Program-made: the position numbers and the translations under genes | The notes under the pieces: model-generated | Databases searched by the model: none | The model's input: only the letters and a program-made list of their open reading frames with translations | What the model was told of the DNA's origin: nothing | Assembly: GCF_000017505.1 (NCBI RefSeq) | Contig: NC_009675.1 | Location: 1,860,001-1,924,000 of the forward strand | DNA length: 64,000 nucleotides | Source of the DNA: Anaeromyxobacter sp. Fw109-5 | Lineage (GTDB): Bacteria > Myxococcota > Myxococcia > Myxococcales > Anaeromyxobacteraceae | Reading direction: 5' to 3' | Shown here: one piece after another, positions 2,615 to 18,508 of the stretch | Numbering within the stretch: position 1 is the stretch's first letter | Layout: the number at the start of each line of letters is the position of its first letter

Positions 2615-3022
2615 GCCAACACCCTCGCTTCCCTTGCAGACGCAGCCCGCTCCACCGTCCCCTCCTCCCGCTCCCGCAATTCTTCCCCCGTCCGCGTCCT
2701 CCCTCACCACAAGCTCCACGCGTTCGCCGTCGCCCGCGACCTGCTCCTCGCCGTCCTCGGTTCGCCCATCCGCGACGCGAAGCTCCGTGACGAGGCCATC
2801 CGCTCGGCCAAGTCGGCCTGCCTCAACACGGCGGAGGGCGCCGGGCGAGTGACGAGGGGCGACAAAGCCCGCGCGTTCGCCATCGCCCGCGCCGAGACCG
2901 TCGAGGCCGCGGCGGCGGTCGAGATCGCGGCGCTGTGCGGGGACACCTCCGCCGCCCACGCGGAGGAGGTGGCTCGGATCGCGGACCGCCTCGTGGCGAT
3001 GCTGACGGGGCTGGTGCGCTAG
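2612..3022 (+). CDS. Four-helix-bundle protein, S23/23S-rRNA-intervening-sequence family
   Basis: A 136-residue, mostly helical protein. The core (KLHAFAVARDLL, then RDAKLRDEAIRSAKSACLN and TAEGAGR) matches the family of stand-alone four-helix-bundle proteins related to ORFs within 23S rRNA intervening sequences and to Avd of diversity-generating retroelements. Molecular function is unknown for the family. The start is taken as the ATG at 2612, preceded by AAGGAG; both lie in a perfect inverted repeat. It converges on a paralogue (3073-3474), with a strong hairpin between the two stops. Hexamer arrays lie on both sides of the pair, which suggests an accessory module. Confidence 0.82.
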   Translation: MANTLASLADAARSTVPSSRSRNSSPVRVLPHHKLHAFAVARDLLLAVLGSPIRDAKLRDEAIRSAKSACLNTAEGAGRVTRGDKARAFAIARAETVEAAAAVEIAALCGDTSAAHAEEVARIADRLVAMLTGLVR

Positions 3023-3030
3023 ACCGGAGC

Positions 3031-3061
3031 GGCGCGGTGACCTCGCTCGGGTCACCGCGCC
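3031..3061. terminator. Bidirectional hairpin between convergent S23-like genes
   Basis: Perfect 12-bp arms GGCGCGGTGACC (3031-3042) and GGTCACCGCGCC (3050-3061) with a 7-base loop, placed between the stop codons at 3022 and 3073. No U tract on either side. By position it probably ends both transcripts. Confidence 0.65.
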
Positions 3062-3072
3062 TCGTGCTGCGT

Positions 3073-3474
3073 TCAGCGCGTGGGGGCCCTGCGGAGCAGC
3101 CCTCGCAGCATGGCCCGGAGCCGGTCGGCGAGGGCGAGGATCTCGGCTGCGTCGGTCTCCTGGACCGCCCCGATGGCGGCTGCGAGGTCCACCGCCGCGA
3201 CGACCTCGTGGAGCGAGCCGTCGGAGGCGAGGAAGTACTTGCGCCGCATGGCGACGCGATCGTCGGGGAGTCCCTCGCTGAGGTTCAGGAACGCGCTCTT
3301 GGCCGCGCGGGTGGCGTGATCGCGGAGCTCCGCGTCGGAGAGGTGGGCGCGATGAACGCGCACCGCGAGCTCTCGGGCGCAGCGGTAGACGTCGAGGGTC
3401 TGGAAGGGGAAGGGTGTGGGGGAGGGAGTGGAAACGGAACCGGGCTTCAGCTGGACGAGAACGGTGTTTGGCAT
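3073..3474 (-). CDS. Four-helix-bundle protein, S23/23S-rRNA-intervening-sequence family (paralogue)
   Basis: A 133-residue helical protein with the same core plan as its convergent neighbour: DVYRCARELAV, then DAELRDHATRAAKSAFLNLSEG and a C-terminal helix (ILALADRLRAMLRGLLRR). The shared AKSA-LN-EG block marks the S23/IVP-like family; its function is not known. The ATG at 3474 was chosen because AGGAGG lies just upstream and the preceding in-frame sequence has no family similarity. The RBS and start are inside a perfect 19-bp inverted repeat. Sequence divergence from the partner gene is considerable, so this is an old pair and not a recent duplication. Confidence 0.82.
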   Translation of the reverse strand: MPNTVLVQLKPGSVSTPSPTPFPFQTLDVYRCARELAVRVHRAHLSDAELRDHATRAAKSAFLNLSEGLPDDRVAMRRKYFLASDGSLHEVVAAVDLAAAIGAVQETDAAEILALADRLRAMLRGLLRRAPTR

Positions 3475-13677: not shown

Positions 13678-15474
13678 TCAGGGGTCCTCGCGCAGCGCCT
13701 GCTGGAGCGCGTCGCGGCGCGGCCCACGGAGCGGCACGTCGCGGGGATCGACGCGCCCGGCAGGATCGCCGCACACCGGGCAGTCGGCGCGCGGGGAGGG
13801 CGTGAGCCAGACGCTCTGGTAGGCGTGCTGCCCGGGCGTCTCTCCGAAGACCTGCGGGTAGAACCAGTACTCCGCGACGGTGGAGAGGGTGAGGTACGGC
13901 GTCCCCGCTGCGAGCGCGCCCTCGGCGACGCCGGCCAGGGGGGCGTCGCTCCCGGCGAGGAGCAGCGACAGCCCGAGCTTCACCGCCGCGCTCGCCACGT
14001 GGTGGACGTCCGCGCCGAGGGCGATCTCGCCGCGCAGGCGCGCCGTGCCGTAGTCGACCTCTCGCGCGACGCCGCCCGCGCGCTCGAGGGCGCCGCGCGT
14101 GCGCGTCGCGCACAGGTAGCAGGGCGTGCGGCCGGGCACCGTCATCACCACCTCGCCGCCCTGCGCGCCCGCGTAGAGGCCGACGAGGACCGCAGGCCGA
14201 CCCCGGCCGTAGGCGAAGCGATCGAGGGCGCGCTGCGCGGCGGGATCGTCGGTCGCGGCGACGACGAGGTCGGCCGCGCGCACCTGCGCGTCGAGCGCCT
14301 CGGGTCCGAGCGCGTCGACGGCGCAGGCGAGGACCTCGATCTGGAGCGCCGGCTGGACGGCGAGGAGGCGGCGCGCGAGCGCCTCGACCTTGAGGCGGCC
14401 GACATCGCCCACCTCGTACGACGTCCGCGAGAGGTTCACCGCCTCGACCGTCTCGGGATCCACGAGGGAGAGCGCGCCCACCCCGCTCCGCGCGAGTTGC
14501 TCGGCGACGTACGACCCCACCGATCCGCACCCCGCGACGAGGACGCGCCGCTCCCGCAGCGAGTCCCCGGCCGTACCCGCGCCGCGCGCGAGCAGCGCGG
14601 TGCGCAGCCCCTCCGCCACCAGCGCCGGCTCGCCGCCGGCGAGCCGCCGAGCCCACCCGGCCAGCCTCGCCCGCTCCGGATTCGAGGTGAGCCCCGGCCC
14701 GCCGGGCGGACCGTAGACGGGGCGATACGGCCCGGGCGGCTCGACGGCGGTGCGCACCGCGGTGCAGAGCCGGACCTCCTCCGGCGCCCCGAGCGGCCAG
14801 GGGATGGAGAGCTGCTCGGTGTCGCCCCCTGCGCGCGTGGCGAGCACGAGCGGCGGCAGCGTGGGATAGCCGTCGCCCACGACCACGAGGAGCTCGAGCT
14901 CGTCCGCGCGCACCCTCGCCGCCGGAAGGGCGGCGTCACCCACGTCCACCACCGTCACGCCCGCGGCGACGCCGTCGAGCTCGCGCGCGAGCCGCTCGGC
15001 GTCGCGGAGGAGCGGCACGATCGCGACGCGCAGGGGGCTCACCTCGGGGCCGTGCGCCGTCCGCCTGGCGGCGAAGAACGAGATCTTCCCGGAGGGGAGG
15101 GCGAGCTCGTGCGGGCCGAGCGGGCCAGGCCCGCGGGTCACGATGGGCGCGAGGTAGATCGCGATGTGGCCGTTGCGCGCCAGCCCCTCCGCGAGCTCCG
15201 CGACGTCCTGGGCCGAGGGCGCGTCGAGCAGCGCGGGGTGGGAGTGGACGAGGCCCTTCAGCTCGAGCCCCTCGTCGCGCTCGAGCGCCTTGACCCGCGC
15301 GTCGAGCGCGCGCGAGGGGCGGTAGGTCGAGGGCGTCGCCGCCGCCTGAGGATCGGGGACGAGCTCGGTGACGAGCGGCACGCCGCGCGGGCCGACGAGG
15401 GCGCCGCCGCGCTCGGGGGCGTGTGCCGCGAGCTCCGCCTCGATCGCGCGGACGACGGCGTCGAGGACGCGCAC
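13678..15474 (-). CDS. JAB metalloprotease-E1 (ThiF/UBA-like) fusion protein
   Basis: 598 residues. The N-terminal domain (about 1-135) is a JAB/MPN peptidase: ERGGALVG near residue 21 and the full JAMM signature HSHP-x6-S-x2-D (His77, His79, Asp90). The C-terminal domain (about 305-570) is an E1-like adenylyltransferase: VLVAGCGSVGSYVAEQLA (311-328), acidic LVDPETVE, Asn-Arg NLSR, VVAATDD, and two Cys pairs (CYLC near 452, CPVC near 565) that should bind zinc. The family role is to activate a ubiquitin-like protein and to cleave it. A middle region of about 150-300 is unassigned. GTG start 10 bp after the 63-residue gene; third gene of an E2-like/small/JAB-E1 operon. Confidence 0.9.
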   Translation of the reverse strand: MRVLDAVVRAIEAELAAHAPERGGALVGPRGVPLVTELVPDPQAAATPSTYRPSRALDARVKALERDEGLELKGLVHSHPALLDAPSAQDVAELAEGLARNGHIAIYLAPIVTRGPGPLGPHELALPSGKISFFAARRTAHGPEVSPLRVAIVPLLRDAERLARELDGVAAGVTVVDVGDAALPAARVRADELELLVVVGDGYPTLPPLVLATRAGGDTEQLSIPWPLGAPEEVRLCTAVRTAVEPPGPYRPVYGPPGGPGLTSNPERARLAGWARRLAGGEPALVAEGLRTALLARGAGTAGDSLRERRVLVAGCGSVGSYVAEQLARSGVGALSLVDPETVEAVNLSRTSYEVGDVGRLKVEALARRLLAVQPALQIEVLACAVDALGPEALDAQVRAADLVVAATDDPAAQRALDRFAYGRGRPAVLVGLYAGAQGGEVVMTVPGRTPCYLCATRTRGALERAGGVAREVDYGTARLRGEIALGADVHHVASAAVKLGLSLLLAGSDAPLAGVAEGALAAGTPYLTLSTVAEYWFYPQVFGETPGQHAYQSVWLTPSPRADCPVCGDPAGRVDPRDVPLRGPRRDALQQALREDP

Positions 15475-15484
15475 GGATCCAGGG

Positions 15485-15676
15485 CTACGCGAAGACCGCC
15501 TGGTGGACCTCGGAGAGCGACTGTCCCTCGTCGCCCCGCGGCAGCCGGTCGCCGATCACGATCCGTCCGCCCGGATCCACGAACACGCGGCGCCGCTTGT
15601 CGCGGGGCGTCACGTCCCCCGTACGCCGGTTGTCGAACAGGACCTCACGAAGCTGGGCGAGCGCTGCATCGGACAT
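15485..15676 (-). CDS. 63-residue protein in the ubiquitin-like cassette, function unknown
   Basis: Starts at ATG 15676 with a strong AAGGAGG site, so it is very probably translated. The sequence reads as an N-terminal helix (ALAQLREVLFDN), a basic turn (TPRDKRRR), a beta hairpin (RVFVDPGGRIVIGD) and a short helix ending SEVHQAVFA. It lies 16 bp after the E2-like gene and 10 bp before the JAB-E1 gene. By position it could be the modifier, an adaptor or a substrate. It is short for a beta-grasp fold and does not end in Gly-Gly. I do not recognise its family. Confidence 0.75.
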   Translation of the reverse strand: MSDAALAQLREVLFDNRRTGDVTPRDKRRRVFVDPGGRIVIGDRLPRGDEGQSLSEVHQAVFA

Positions 15677-15692
15677 GGTGATCCTCCTTCGG

Positions 15693-16082
15693 TCAGAACG
15701 GGAACGTTCCCGTGCGCTGGTAGACGCTGAAGCCGTTCGCCCACAGGACGCTCTTCGCGTAGGCGCCCTCGAGCGTGGGCATCCCGCCGCCCTCGTCGGA
15801 GGAGAGGCAGATGCGGGCGTGCGGGAACAGGTGGCAGGCGTGCGGATCGTGGCGGGACACGTCTGGATTCGCGACGGCGACCTGGTAGGCGGCGCCGTCG
15901 AACCAGAGGAAGAGCTGGAGCCGATCGCCCGCCTCGGTGATGACCGGGTACAGCCAGCCGCGCACGCCGTCCACGACGATCGCCCGCGTGGCCGAGGGGA
16001 GGCTCTGCTCGACGGCGGCGCGGTCGCGGAGCGCGTCGTGCACCGGCCCCGCGCCGAGCTCGCCGCCGAACAGCCGCCTCAT
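15693..16082 (-). CDS. E2-like ubiquitin-conjugating-fold protein (predicted)
   Basis: 129 residues from ATG 16082, which has GGGAGG six bases upstream; a TTG at 16103 would add only Arg-rich residues. The segment HDPHACHLFPHARICLSSD (about 79-96) resembles the E2 active-site region, where His residues precede G/R-ICL and the Cys forms the thioester (here Cys92). Next comes LEGAYAKSVLWANGFSVY, like the Trp-containing helix after the Cys in bacterial E2-like families. The preceding strands (LQLFLWFDGAAYQVAVANP) fit the E2 sheet. It is the first gene of the cassette with the 63-residue protein and the JAB-E1 fusion, which supports the call. Fold search not done. Confidence 0.72.
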   Translation of the reverse strand: MRRLFGGELGAGPVHDALRDRAAVEQSLPSATRAIVVDGVRGWLYPVITEAGDRLQLFLWFDGAAYQVAVANPDVSRHDPHACHLFPHARICLSSDEGGGMPTLEGAYAKSVLWANGFSVYQRTGTFPF

Positions 16083-16282: not shown

Positions 16283-17869
16283 ATGAGCGAGCTCATCGAG
16301 ACCGGCGCACCGCCCCGGAAGGACCTTCTCAAGCACCTCATCCTCCAGCTCCATGGCGGCGTCGCCCCCGACGCGGTCCAGCGGCAGCTCGTTCGCCTGC
16401 TGGGGCAGGTTCCGTACGGGCTCGTGGTGGAGGTGGAGCAGGAGCTTCTGGCGGACGGCATGCCCGCGGCGGAGGTGACGCGACTCTGCCACCTCCACTC
16501 GGCGGCGCTGCAGGGCGCGATCGACCTCTCGGGAGTGCGCACGCCGCCCGCGGGTCACCCGGCCCGCGTCTTCTCCGAGGAGAACGCCGCGCTCGCCAAG
16601 CAGGTCCAGGCGCTCGAGCACGCCGCCGACGCGCTCGATGCGGTCGTGTCGGAGGGCGGCGCGGGCGTGCACCTCCTGCAGGCGCGCGTTCGCGTCAACG
16701 CGCTCACCGACGTCGAGAAGCACTACCTCCGCAAGGAGCACCTGCTCTTCCCGTTCCTCGAGCGGCACGGCATCACCGGCCCGCCGCAGGTGATGTGGGG
16801 CAAGCACGACCAGACTCGCGCGCTGCTGCGCGCGGCGCACGCGGCGCTCGCGTCCGCCGCCGGCGATCCCGCCGCGGCGCGAGCGCTCTCGGACGGCGCG
16901 CTGCGGCCGCTGGCGAGCGCGATCCGCGACATGGTGGACAAGGAGGAGAACATCCTCTTGCCCATGGCGCTCGACGTGCTCGACGAGCGCGAGTGGTGGG
17001 AGATCGCGCGGCAGAGCGACGAGATCGGCTACTGCCTCGTCGAGCCCGAGGCGAGCTGGCGCCCCGACTCCGTGGACGCGACCGAGGCCGCCGCGCCGGC
17101 CGCGCGCGTGAAGCTCCCCACCGGCAGCCTCGCGCCCGCGGAGCTCGAGGCCATCCTCGGCGCCCTGCCGCTCGACGCCACGTTCGTGGACGCCGAGGAC
17201 CGCGTCCGCTGGTTCAGCCACGGCAAGGAGCGCGTGTTCTCGCGCAGCCGCGCCGTGATCGGCCGCAAGGTGCAGTTCTGCCACCCGCCGTCTTCCGTCG
17301 GCACGGTCGAGACGATCCTCGCGGGCTTCCGGGCGGGGACCCAGGACCGCGCGTCGTTCTGGATCCAGCTGCGCGGGCGCTTCGTCCACATCGAGTACCG
17401 CGCCCTGCGGGACGTCTCCGGAGCATATCTCGGCTGCCTCGAGGTCACGCAGGACCTCACCGAGAAGCGCGCGCTCGCCGGCGAGCAACGGCTCCTCTCG
17501 TGGGAGGCCACCGCGCAGCAGGCCAGCGCGCCGGTGCAGGCGTGCCCGGCGCACCCAGGGGCCCCGTCCGCCGCCGCGCCGCACCCGGCACGGGCCGAAT
17601 CGGCGGCCGCGAGGCCTGCCTGGCTCGAGGGCGCACGCGTCTCCAGGTCGCTCGACGCGCGCCCGCTCCTCGCCGCCGGCGCGCACCCGGTGCAGGAGGT
17701 GATGCAGGAGCTCGCCACGCTCGCCCCGGGCGCCGTCTTCGAGCTCGTCGCTCCGTTCGTGCCCGGCCCGCTCCTCGAGCGGGCGCGCGCCGCCGGCTGC
17801 CTCGCGCACTCGGAGCAGGAGGCGCCGGGGCTGGTGAGGACGTGGTTCACGCGGGGTGGGGCGGCGTAA
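16283..17869 (+). CDS. DUF438-hemerythrin-PAS-DUF2249 multidomain protein
   Basis: 528 residues from ATG 16283. Order of parts: DUF438 (about 10-75, KDLLKHLILQLHGG); hemerythrin-like di-iron bundle (about 95-250, with KEHLLFPFLERHG, WGKHDQTRALL and DKEENILLPM supplying His/Glu ligands); PAS domain (about 285-390, ATFVDAEDRVRWFSHGK); Ala/Pro linker; DUF2249 (about 445-520, SLDARPLL). It probably senses or binds oxygen or nitric oxide in the cytosol. It is divergent from the E2-like gene. A hexamer array begins one base after its TAA stop. Confidence 0.86.
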   Translation: MSELIETGAPPRKDLLKHLILQLHGGVAPDAVQRQLVRLLGQVPYGLVVEVEQELLADGMPAAEVTRLCHLHSAALQGAIDLSGVRTPPAGHPARVFSEENAALAKQVQALEHAADALDAVVSEGGAGVHLLQARVRVNALTDVEKHYLRKEHLLFPFLERHGITGPPQVMWGKHDQTRALLRAAHAALASAAGDPAAARALSDGALRPLASAIRDMVDKEENILLPMALDVLDEREWWEIARQSDEIGYCLVEPEASWRPDSVDATEAAAPAARVKLPTGSLAPAELEAILGALPLDATFVDAEDRVRWFSHGKERVFSRSRAVIGRKVQFCHPPSSVGTVETILAGFRAGTQDRASFWIQLRGRFVHIEYRALRDVSGAYLGCLEVTQDLTEKRALAGEQRLLSWEATAQQASAPVQACPAHPGAPSAAAPHPARAESAAARPAWLEGARVSRSLDARPLLAAGAHPVQEVMQELATLAPGAVFELVAPFVPGPLLERARAAGCLAHSEQEAPGLVRTWFTRGGAA

Positions 17870-17870
17870 G

Positions 17871-17988
17871 GGACCCCGAGCCCGACCCCGACCTCGACCC
17901 CGACCCCGACCGCGACCTCGACCCCGACCCCGACCGCGACCTCGACCGCGACCTCGACCCCGACCGCGACCTCGACCTCGACCTCGAG
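17871..17988. repeat. GTCGNG-type array 3 (opposite orientation)
   Basis: About 19 hexamers of GACCTC, GACCCC and GACCGC type, i.e. the complement of the other arrays. It begins directly after the TAA stop (17867-17869) and ends about 40 bp before the stop of the minus-strand lipoprotein gene, thus filling most of the convergent gap. Confidence 0.95.
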
Positions 17989-18028
17989 CCCACCGCGACT
18001 CTCATCCGGGTTGCCGCGGAGCCCGCTC

Positions 18029-18508
18029 CTACCTCCTCTCGAGCCCCCGCGGCGTCTGCACGACCTCTTCCCCCACCTGGAAGGTGAGGGGCGGACCGGA
18101 CGCGAAGGTCTCGCTGCCGCCGTCCTCGAAGCGGACGAAGATCTCGTAGGTCCGCTGCTCGGCACCGCCCTGGCTCGCGGCCGCGCCCACCACCGCGCCG
18201 CCGATCGCGCCGGCCACGGCGCCCGCCCCGCTGCCGTGGTGGTGGACCCGGCCGTAGCGGTCGTAGTGCGCCCGGCCGCCGATCGCGCTGCCGAGGAGCC
18301 CGCCCACGACCGCCCCCGCGACGGCGCCCGCGCCCGGGTTTCCCTGCTGGCGCGTGACGGTCTCGCGGATGGAGGCGACGTAGCCGACGCGCGCCCACTC
18401 TGGCGAGGAGCCCTCGCCCCACGTGGTCGAGGTGGTGGTCGTCGTCGCGCACGCTGTCGACAGGAAGGCGGCCAGGGTGGCGAGCGAGGCGAGGCGGCCG
18501 GGCTTCAT
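18029..18508 (-). CDS. Glycine-zipper lipoprotein
   Basis: 159 residues. Signal peptide with lipobox LSTAC followed by a Thr-rich stretch. Two glycine-zipper blocks (AGAVAGAVVGGLLGSAIGG and AGAVAGAIGGAVVGAA) are separated by a His/Tyr/Arg-rich turn. The C-terminal part (TYEIFVRFEDGGSETF, then FQVGEEVVQ) is like the end domain of SlyB/OmpA-associated 17-kDa proteins. Probably an outer-membrane lipoprotein with an envelope-integrity role. ATG 18508 has GGAGG upstream. Upstream 18509-18777 is non-coding and shared with the divergent kinase gene. Confidence 0.82.
   Translation of the reverse strand: MKPGRLASLATLAAFLSTACATTTTTSTTWGEGSSPEWARVGYVASIRETVTRQQGNPGAGAVAGAVVGGLLGSAIGGRAHYDRYGRVHHHGSGAGAVAGAIGGAVVGAAASQGGAEQRTYEIFVRFEDGGSETFASGPPLTFQVGEEVVQTPRGLERR

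Follow-up and report, generated by a model that had tools for sequence, protein, structure and literature searches.

The Bub system uses a beta-grasp ubiquitin-like protein (Ubl) and oxyester intermediates. In the operon type 6e, an N-terminal JAB-E1 fusion is found together with a polyUbl, an inactive E2/RWD-like domain and the Zn protein Y, the polyUbl lying beside JAB-E1 and sometimes being fused to the E2-like domain (PMC1779556); in Bil (BilABCD), the E1, the E2, the JAMM peptidase and the modifier share one operon (PMC11354881). Here we analyzed a cassette of three genes in Anaeromyxobacter sp. Fw109-5, contained in a stretch of 64,000 nucleotides (positions 1,860,001-1,924,000 of the complete 5.28-Mb chromosome; hereafter the window). 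The cassette encodes an E2-like protein, a 63-aa protein, here named SM, and a JAB-E1 fusion, which together appear to constitute an intact E2/E1/JAMM ubiquitin-like conjugation cassette whose activities we infer from invariant residues and predicted folds. SM, which the initial annotation had left as merely unassigned, turned out to be a conserved domain that relatives carry joined to the E2, and this makes it the best candidate for the modifier.

Catalytic components of the cassette

The trio lies on the minus strand in the order E2-like protein (16082-15693; 129 aa, ATG start), SM (15676-15485; ATG start) and JAB-E1 (15474-13678; 598 aa, GTG start), with intergenic gaps of 16 and 10 bp; the coordinates and all motifs named in the initial annotation were confirmed. 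The dN/dS ratio (nonsynonymous to synonymous substitution rates) between close pairs was 0.08-0.32 over all three genes, and 0.08-0.16 for SM; all three are real genes under purifying selection.

Pfam comparison of the JAB-E1 fusion (13678..15474, minus strand; AlphaFold2 model with a mean predicted local distance difference test score, pLDDT, of 83.8) placed ThiF (E=3.7e-33) and Prok-JAB (E=2.2e-11) on one chain, in agreement with the earlier claim that peptidase and activating enzyme are joined in a single polypeptide. The conservation of catalytic residues was counted in 13 aligned full-length JAB-E1 proteins from four phyla. In the N-terminal domain (residues 1-137; 15064..15474, minus strand), E21 and the downstream motif H77-S-H79-P-x6-S87-x2-D90 correspond to the Glu and H-x-H-x7-S-x2-D that define JAMM/MPN+ peptidases, to which this domain is assigned by its sequence, and E21, H77, H79, S87 and D90 were invariant (13/13). 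The E1 adenylyltransferase domain (residues 283-587; 13714..14628, minus strand) showed the same degree of conservation for the Arg finger R297, for G315, G317 and S318 of the GxGS motif, and for D339, N347, R350, K362 and D409. It belongs to the ThiF/MoeB/UBA superfamily: VIA structure comparison of the JAB-E1 model, with matches mainly covering residues 282-587, gave MoeB (Z 26.0; 2.0 A over 229 residues), ThiF (25.2) and UBA5 (24.8), and MccB was also among the matches listed (Z about 23). For BubCD and Atg7, the alignment extended across almost the entire chain (Z about 23), and its large root-mean-square deviation is attributable to the domain arrangement.

The two cysteine pairs noted previously in the E1 part, C452/C455 and C565/C568, were present in every homologue (13/13), but they look like zinc ligands. 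Beyond these four zinc-type cysteines, no candidate catalytic Cys of the E1 was conserved among the 13 homologues, C316 in the nucleotide loop being variable; thus transfer probably proceeds without a conventional E1 thioester. The earlier description of a conjugation system was supported as regards an intact E2/E1/JAMM set, but it had overlooked a middle domain between JAMM and E1 (residues 143-262; 14689..15048, minus strand). This domain contains an invariant YPxxPP, and its predicted alpha-beta4-alpha order resembles RWD/UBC domains; the motif and the strand order suggest an RWD-like domain. Comparison with the Pfam RWD profile returned only E=0.36, in one homologue. A profile comparison of the middle domain with the E2 was negative, and we did not adopt this domain as a proven homologue of the E2.

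The 129-aa protein (15693..16082, minus strand) is predicted to be a conjugating enzyme with a UBC (E2) fold. Its active-site motif, H84...I91-C92-L93 (His84 codon 15831-15833; Cys92 codon 15807-15809), includes the ICL cysteine recognized earlier, and both His84 and Cys92 were invariant in 21/21 homologues; Cys83 was invariant inside Anaeromyxobacteraceae but not outside. The fold was read from a model of the SM-E2 fusion of the orthologue at Chloroflexota locus L059 (22-row alignment; mean pLDDT 88.4), in which residues 62-183 matched UBC folds in the VIA comparison. CdnG-E2 of the type II-short cyclic oligonucleotide-based antiphage signaling system (CBASS; 8yjy_B) and the Tsg101 UEV domain both scored Z 8.8, followed by Cap2 (7.9), UBE2W (7.9) and UFC1 (7.6); nearly all of the best 50 matches were E2/UEV/RWD-type chains, although a Z near 8 is modest. 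Foldseek by itself gave a weak match (E 0.11), and the best match of the SM-E2 profile to PDB sequences, likewise weak (E 0.083), was an E2 with the catalytic cysteines aligned. The E2 matched no family model in Pfam, PADLOC or NCBIfam, and across 22 members no Pfam E2 model was matched at E<=10. Lectin matches over 30 residues in a first comparison of the E2 with PDB sequences were dismissed as spurious. As a separate observation, in an Anaerolineaceae metagenome-assembled genome (MAG), a second E2-like domain lacking the His/Cys motif is fused to a ClpB-type AAA+ ATPase (L069:4157-5524) directly upstream of SM-E2, which hints at an unfoldase partner for conjugates.

The 63-aa protein as candidate modifier

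SM (15485..15676, minus strand) consists of a helix, a V-x-V-D-x-x-G-x-I hairpin and a conserved C-terminal tail, LSEVHQAVFA (15488..15517, minus strand), which is the proposed activated end. The corresponding block, LSxVxxxxF[A], is the best-conserved part of the domain. In the stand-alone SM proteins of Anaeromyxobacteraceae, the stop codon follows directly after this block in 6 of 10 genomes; the other four carry 2-4 extra residues (AP, APLR, APRS, AGQG), the first of which is always Ala. In all 11 loci outside Myxococcota, which represent five phyla, the SM domain is encoded N-terminally to the E2, and the junction falls right behind LSxVxxxxF[A]; the SM part of L068 and L069 was identified by alignment, not by the SM profile. 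The hairpin and tail occur in two tandem copies in the actinobacterial locus L066 (LSQVTxETFY), the second copy being 9/10 identical; at least 7/10 matches were reached in only 2 of 20,000 shuffles. An actinomycete locus (L086:8310-8735) carries an orphan SM-E2 relic with no JAB-E1 in 17 kb, in which the active-site segment of the E2 has been deleted and the F[A] end is gone too. Two further observations concern the SM sequence. In a Hyphomicrobiales MAG (L065:2880-3463), SM and E2 lie in different frames (2880-3158 and 3017-3463), which reflects either an assembly error or a real split. In addition, a segment of the E1, LS[TM]V-x2-Y-[WL]-F-Y (window 13850-13890; JAB-E1 residues about 529-540), resembles the SM tail and is possibly an internal mimic of it, or a chance likeness.

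The fixed C-terminal end, the optional pro-extension, the precursor fusion, the tandem copies and the joint loss with the enzymes suggest a modifier tail; the tandem tails of L066 look like those of a poly-modifier. We favor, with somewhat less than even confidence, a reading in which SM serves as the modifier, the JAMM domain releases it, and its C-terminal alanine is the site of activation; modifier identity, cut site and targets are deduced from gene architecture. Where SM is synthesized fused to the E2 or bears a short extra tail, the JAMM domain would cut after ...VF[A] and free the C-terminal Ala, whereas in the window genome SM would already be made with the ...VFA end. The E1 domain would then use ATP to adenylate this Ala, SM would be taken up by the E2 on Cys92, directly from the adenylate or via a non-cysteine E1 intermediate, and the E2 would pass it to an amine on target proteins, from which the JAMM domain that shares a chain with the E1 could take it off again. 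The more specific proposal, in which a modifier without the beta-grasp fold, ending in ...F-Ala, is handled by an E1 lacking a catalytic Cys and by a cysteine E2, and is mostly supplied as an SM-E2 precursor cut by the JAMM domain, is put forward more tentatively. Mature Atg8-family modifiers end in an aromatic plus a small residue, LC3 ending in ETFG; an E1 substrate that ends in F-Ala is therefore not far-fetched. The earlier statement that no recognizable modifier, cyclase or effector lies beside the enzymes was borne out insofar as no known one was found in the window; however, it had passed over SM, and no other candidate modifier was recognized in the neighborhood of the window cassette.

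Several results weigh against a modifier role. No sequence relation of SM to any Ubl was found in the family-model and PDB sequence searches, and more generally SM has no relative in Pfam, NCBIfam, PADLOC or PDB sequences. Its predicted order, alpha-beta-beta-beta-tail, differs from that of beta-grasp ubiquitin; this order was seen only within the SM-E2 model, where SM comprises a helix (10-23), strands 35-37, 43-45 and 56-58, and a helix shared with the E2 (61-80), at pLDDT of about 62-86. The terminal residue is Ala rather than Gly (Glu in L064, Tyr in L066), and the F-A junction of the model lies in the first turn of the first E2 helix (61-80), which is not obviously an exposed cut site. 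Strong conservation would likewise be expected of a docking peptide, and fusion to the E2 would be just as natural for a docking domain, so that the modifier role of SM is one we infer.

The main rival is a docking adaptor: SM could serve the E2 as an N-terminal domain for docking or regulation, detached as a gene of its own in Anaeromyxobacteraceae, and bridge the E2 to the E1 or JAB, the real modifier being the C-terminus of another protein encoded elsewhere, as the CD-NTase is for Cap2. The fusion in non-Myxococcota relatives would alone lead one to expect physical association, the predicted fusion has the conserved tail continuing into the first E2 helix, SM does not resemble a beta-grasp Ubl, and three ThiS/MoaD-family proteins encoded elsewhere in the genome could serve as modifier. 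However, an element acting in cis would be pointless as a separate protein, yet 10 genomes retain stand-alone SM with a C-terminus anchored at the F-A block; the second tail of L066 stands away from the E2 junction, and no alternative modifier was recognized in the inspected loci. We regard the docking role as possible but doubtful. It is unlikely that the cassette instead modifies a peptide or small molecule, with the SM tail adenylated by the E1 in the way a peptide is by MccB or sulfur carriers are by ThiF/MoeB. The closest structural matches of the E1 domain, its lack of a conserved catalytic Cys and the peptide size of SM are in line with such chemistry, but the E2, whose catalytic His and Cys persist in every homologue, would have no role in it, and no sulfurtransferase, rhodanese or export gene lies consistently alongside. 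Least probable is a plain Bub/6e system with SM as a degenerate beta-grasp Ubl missed by sequence and low-depth structure prediction, since, despite the type 6e gene plan of Ubl(-E2) plus JAB-E1 (PMC1779556), the end-to-end alignment of BubCD with JAB-E1 and an SM length close to that of ThiS, the predicted elements of SM do not follow the beta-beta-alpha-beta order and neither SM nor E2 has a match in Pfam, NCBIfam, PADLOC or PDB sequences.

If SM is the modifier, the E1/E2/JAMM chemistry would not depend on the beta-grasp ubiquitin fold, and fusing modifier and E2 would be a compact means of keeping the tag with its carrier. With three small genes from a cultured genus, reconstitution in vitro could be possible, and a minimal conjugation cycle would then be directly testable.

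Distribution and genomic setting

The identical trio was found in the same order in 9 further genomes of Anaeromyxobacter and one sister genus (10 genomes including the window), with identities of 54-81% for the E2, 45-75% for SM and 59-75% for JAB-E1. Within the family, the cassette was missing only from one 66%-complete genome of the genus and from 13 genomes of four other genera. In a sister-genus genome (G009), the E2 gene is split by a frameshift and SM and JAB-E1 are intact (L036:7742-8133), either through a sequencing error or because the E2 is a pseudogene. Distant relatives were sought by a scan of 85,000 species genomes. Full-length relatives were found in Cyanobacteriota (L057, L058, L063), Chloroflexota (L059, L069), Planctomycetota (L062), Alphaproteobacteria (L064, L065) and Actinomycetota (L066, L068, and L085 from an additional search), with JAB and E1 on separate genes in the planctomycetal and both alphaproteobacterial loci; L051, L052 and L070 were excluded as relatives of the E1 part only. 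A survey of neighborhoods, which had been proposed as a check, revealed both small partners adjacent to every full-length JAB-E1 relative, and E2 and SM accompany full-length JAB-E1, or its two halves, in 21/21 genomes from six phyla. Neither outcome that the initial annotation had named as refuting its reading, a missing E2 fold or variable Cys92 on the one hand and JAB-E1 relatives without the small partners on the other, was thus observed. The cassette is rare: 1 of 367 cyanobacterial and 1 of 350 Chloroflexota genomes have it, as do 3 of 346 from a single actinomycete class.

In the JAB-E1 tree, Anaeromyxobacteraceae formed one clade (100/100), and one Chloroflexota member grouped with cyanobacteria, which fits a spread of the cassette by sporadic horizontal transfer. 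SM-E2 was not found in plasmids or phages, the JAB-E1 search of plasmids matched the E1 domain only, and viral contigs gave no match. Both alphaproteobacterial loci contain a serine resolvase gene immediately upstream of the cassette (L064:3533-4033 and L065:1258-1752), which suggests carriage on a mobile element in these two cases.

In the window, the cassette lies between an FMN reductase gene that converges on it and a DUF438/hemerythrin/PAS gene that diverges from it, and a scan for sigma-70 promoters and terminators gave no match. The neighboring genes vary from species to species; thus the conserved unit is the cassette itself. No clean empty insertion site was found in A. oryzae, where the DUF438 gene lies elsewhere and no FMN reductase gene occurs within 1.5 kb of it. 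Just downstream of the DUF438/hemerythrin/PAS gene, the window contains a simple repeat (17850-18150) encoding (PR)n, (DP)n or (RS)n depending on frame. No recognized defense gene was found beside the window cassette, ABC-type matches there being generic, and no consistent association with defense islands was seen; an IetA-like AAA ATPase adjoins the L057 cassette. Another cluster, ThiS-ThiF-JAB, lies outside the window in the same genome (G000:C1:4223353-4227045, about 4.223-4.227 Mb) and probably represents the sulfur-carrier operon classed as type 4b by Iyer 2006, in whose table A. dehalogenans appears only in row 4b, a ThiS/MoaD-JAB-E1-rhodanese operon (PMC1779556).

Comparison with known conjugation systems

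The architecture of the cassette is unlike the E2-E1 fusion of Cap2, as previously stated, but it is not unprecedented; a JAB-E1 fusion was already known from type 6e (PMC1779556) and, apparently, from the solved BubCD. Type 6e shares with the window cassette the N-terminal JAB-E1 and a modifier gene that adjoins, or is fused to, an E2-like domain, SM standing here in the place of polyUbl, and its spread over proteobacteria, cyanobacteria and actinobacteria is sporadic, as is that of the cassette. Unlike type 6e, the E2 of the cassette has a conserved catalytic His and Cys and forms its own sequence family, a 63-aa SM domain occurs instead of 70-75-aa Ubl repeats, JAB-E1 has an extra middle domain, and the three-gene operon of the window is without Zn protein Y (C-x3-C-x35-38-H-x2-C). 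According to PDB titles, 9ea4, 9eae and 9eav are the Citrobacter BubCD, BubB and BubA. The alignment of BubCD (about 450 aa) takes in almost all of JAB-E1, and from this span BubCD appears to be a two-domain chain in the same order, whereas the window chain has 598 aa and includes the middle domain; the chemistry of Bub also contrasts with a cassette that has an E2 Cys and no recognizable Ubl. We do not claim membership in 6e or Bub, since SM is at most a possible Ubl and protein Y, a feature of 6e, was not present.

Comparison with type II CBASS revealed CdnG-E2 of the type II-short system (8yjy/8hsb) as the best solved match of the E2 domain, ahead of Cap2 (7to3), and CBASS already offers a case in which the conjugated protein is not ubiquitin-like. 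In contrast to type II CBASS, the window neighborhood contains no CD-NTase or effector, the E2 is a separate protein, and the fusion partner of the E1 is JAB instead of the E2. Bil consists of four separate proteins with two Ub-like domains in BilA, whereas here SM is not recognizably Ub-like and JAB is joined to the E1. MoeB, ThiF and UBA5 share the E1 adenylation domain (Z 25-26), to which the cassette chain adds the JAMM and middle domains and a partner E2. What appears to be new here, as judged from family-model searches and gene architecture, is the SM domain together with an E2, neither of which matches a family model, and the encoding of SM on the N-terminus of that E2 in eleven genomes of five other phyla.

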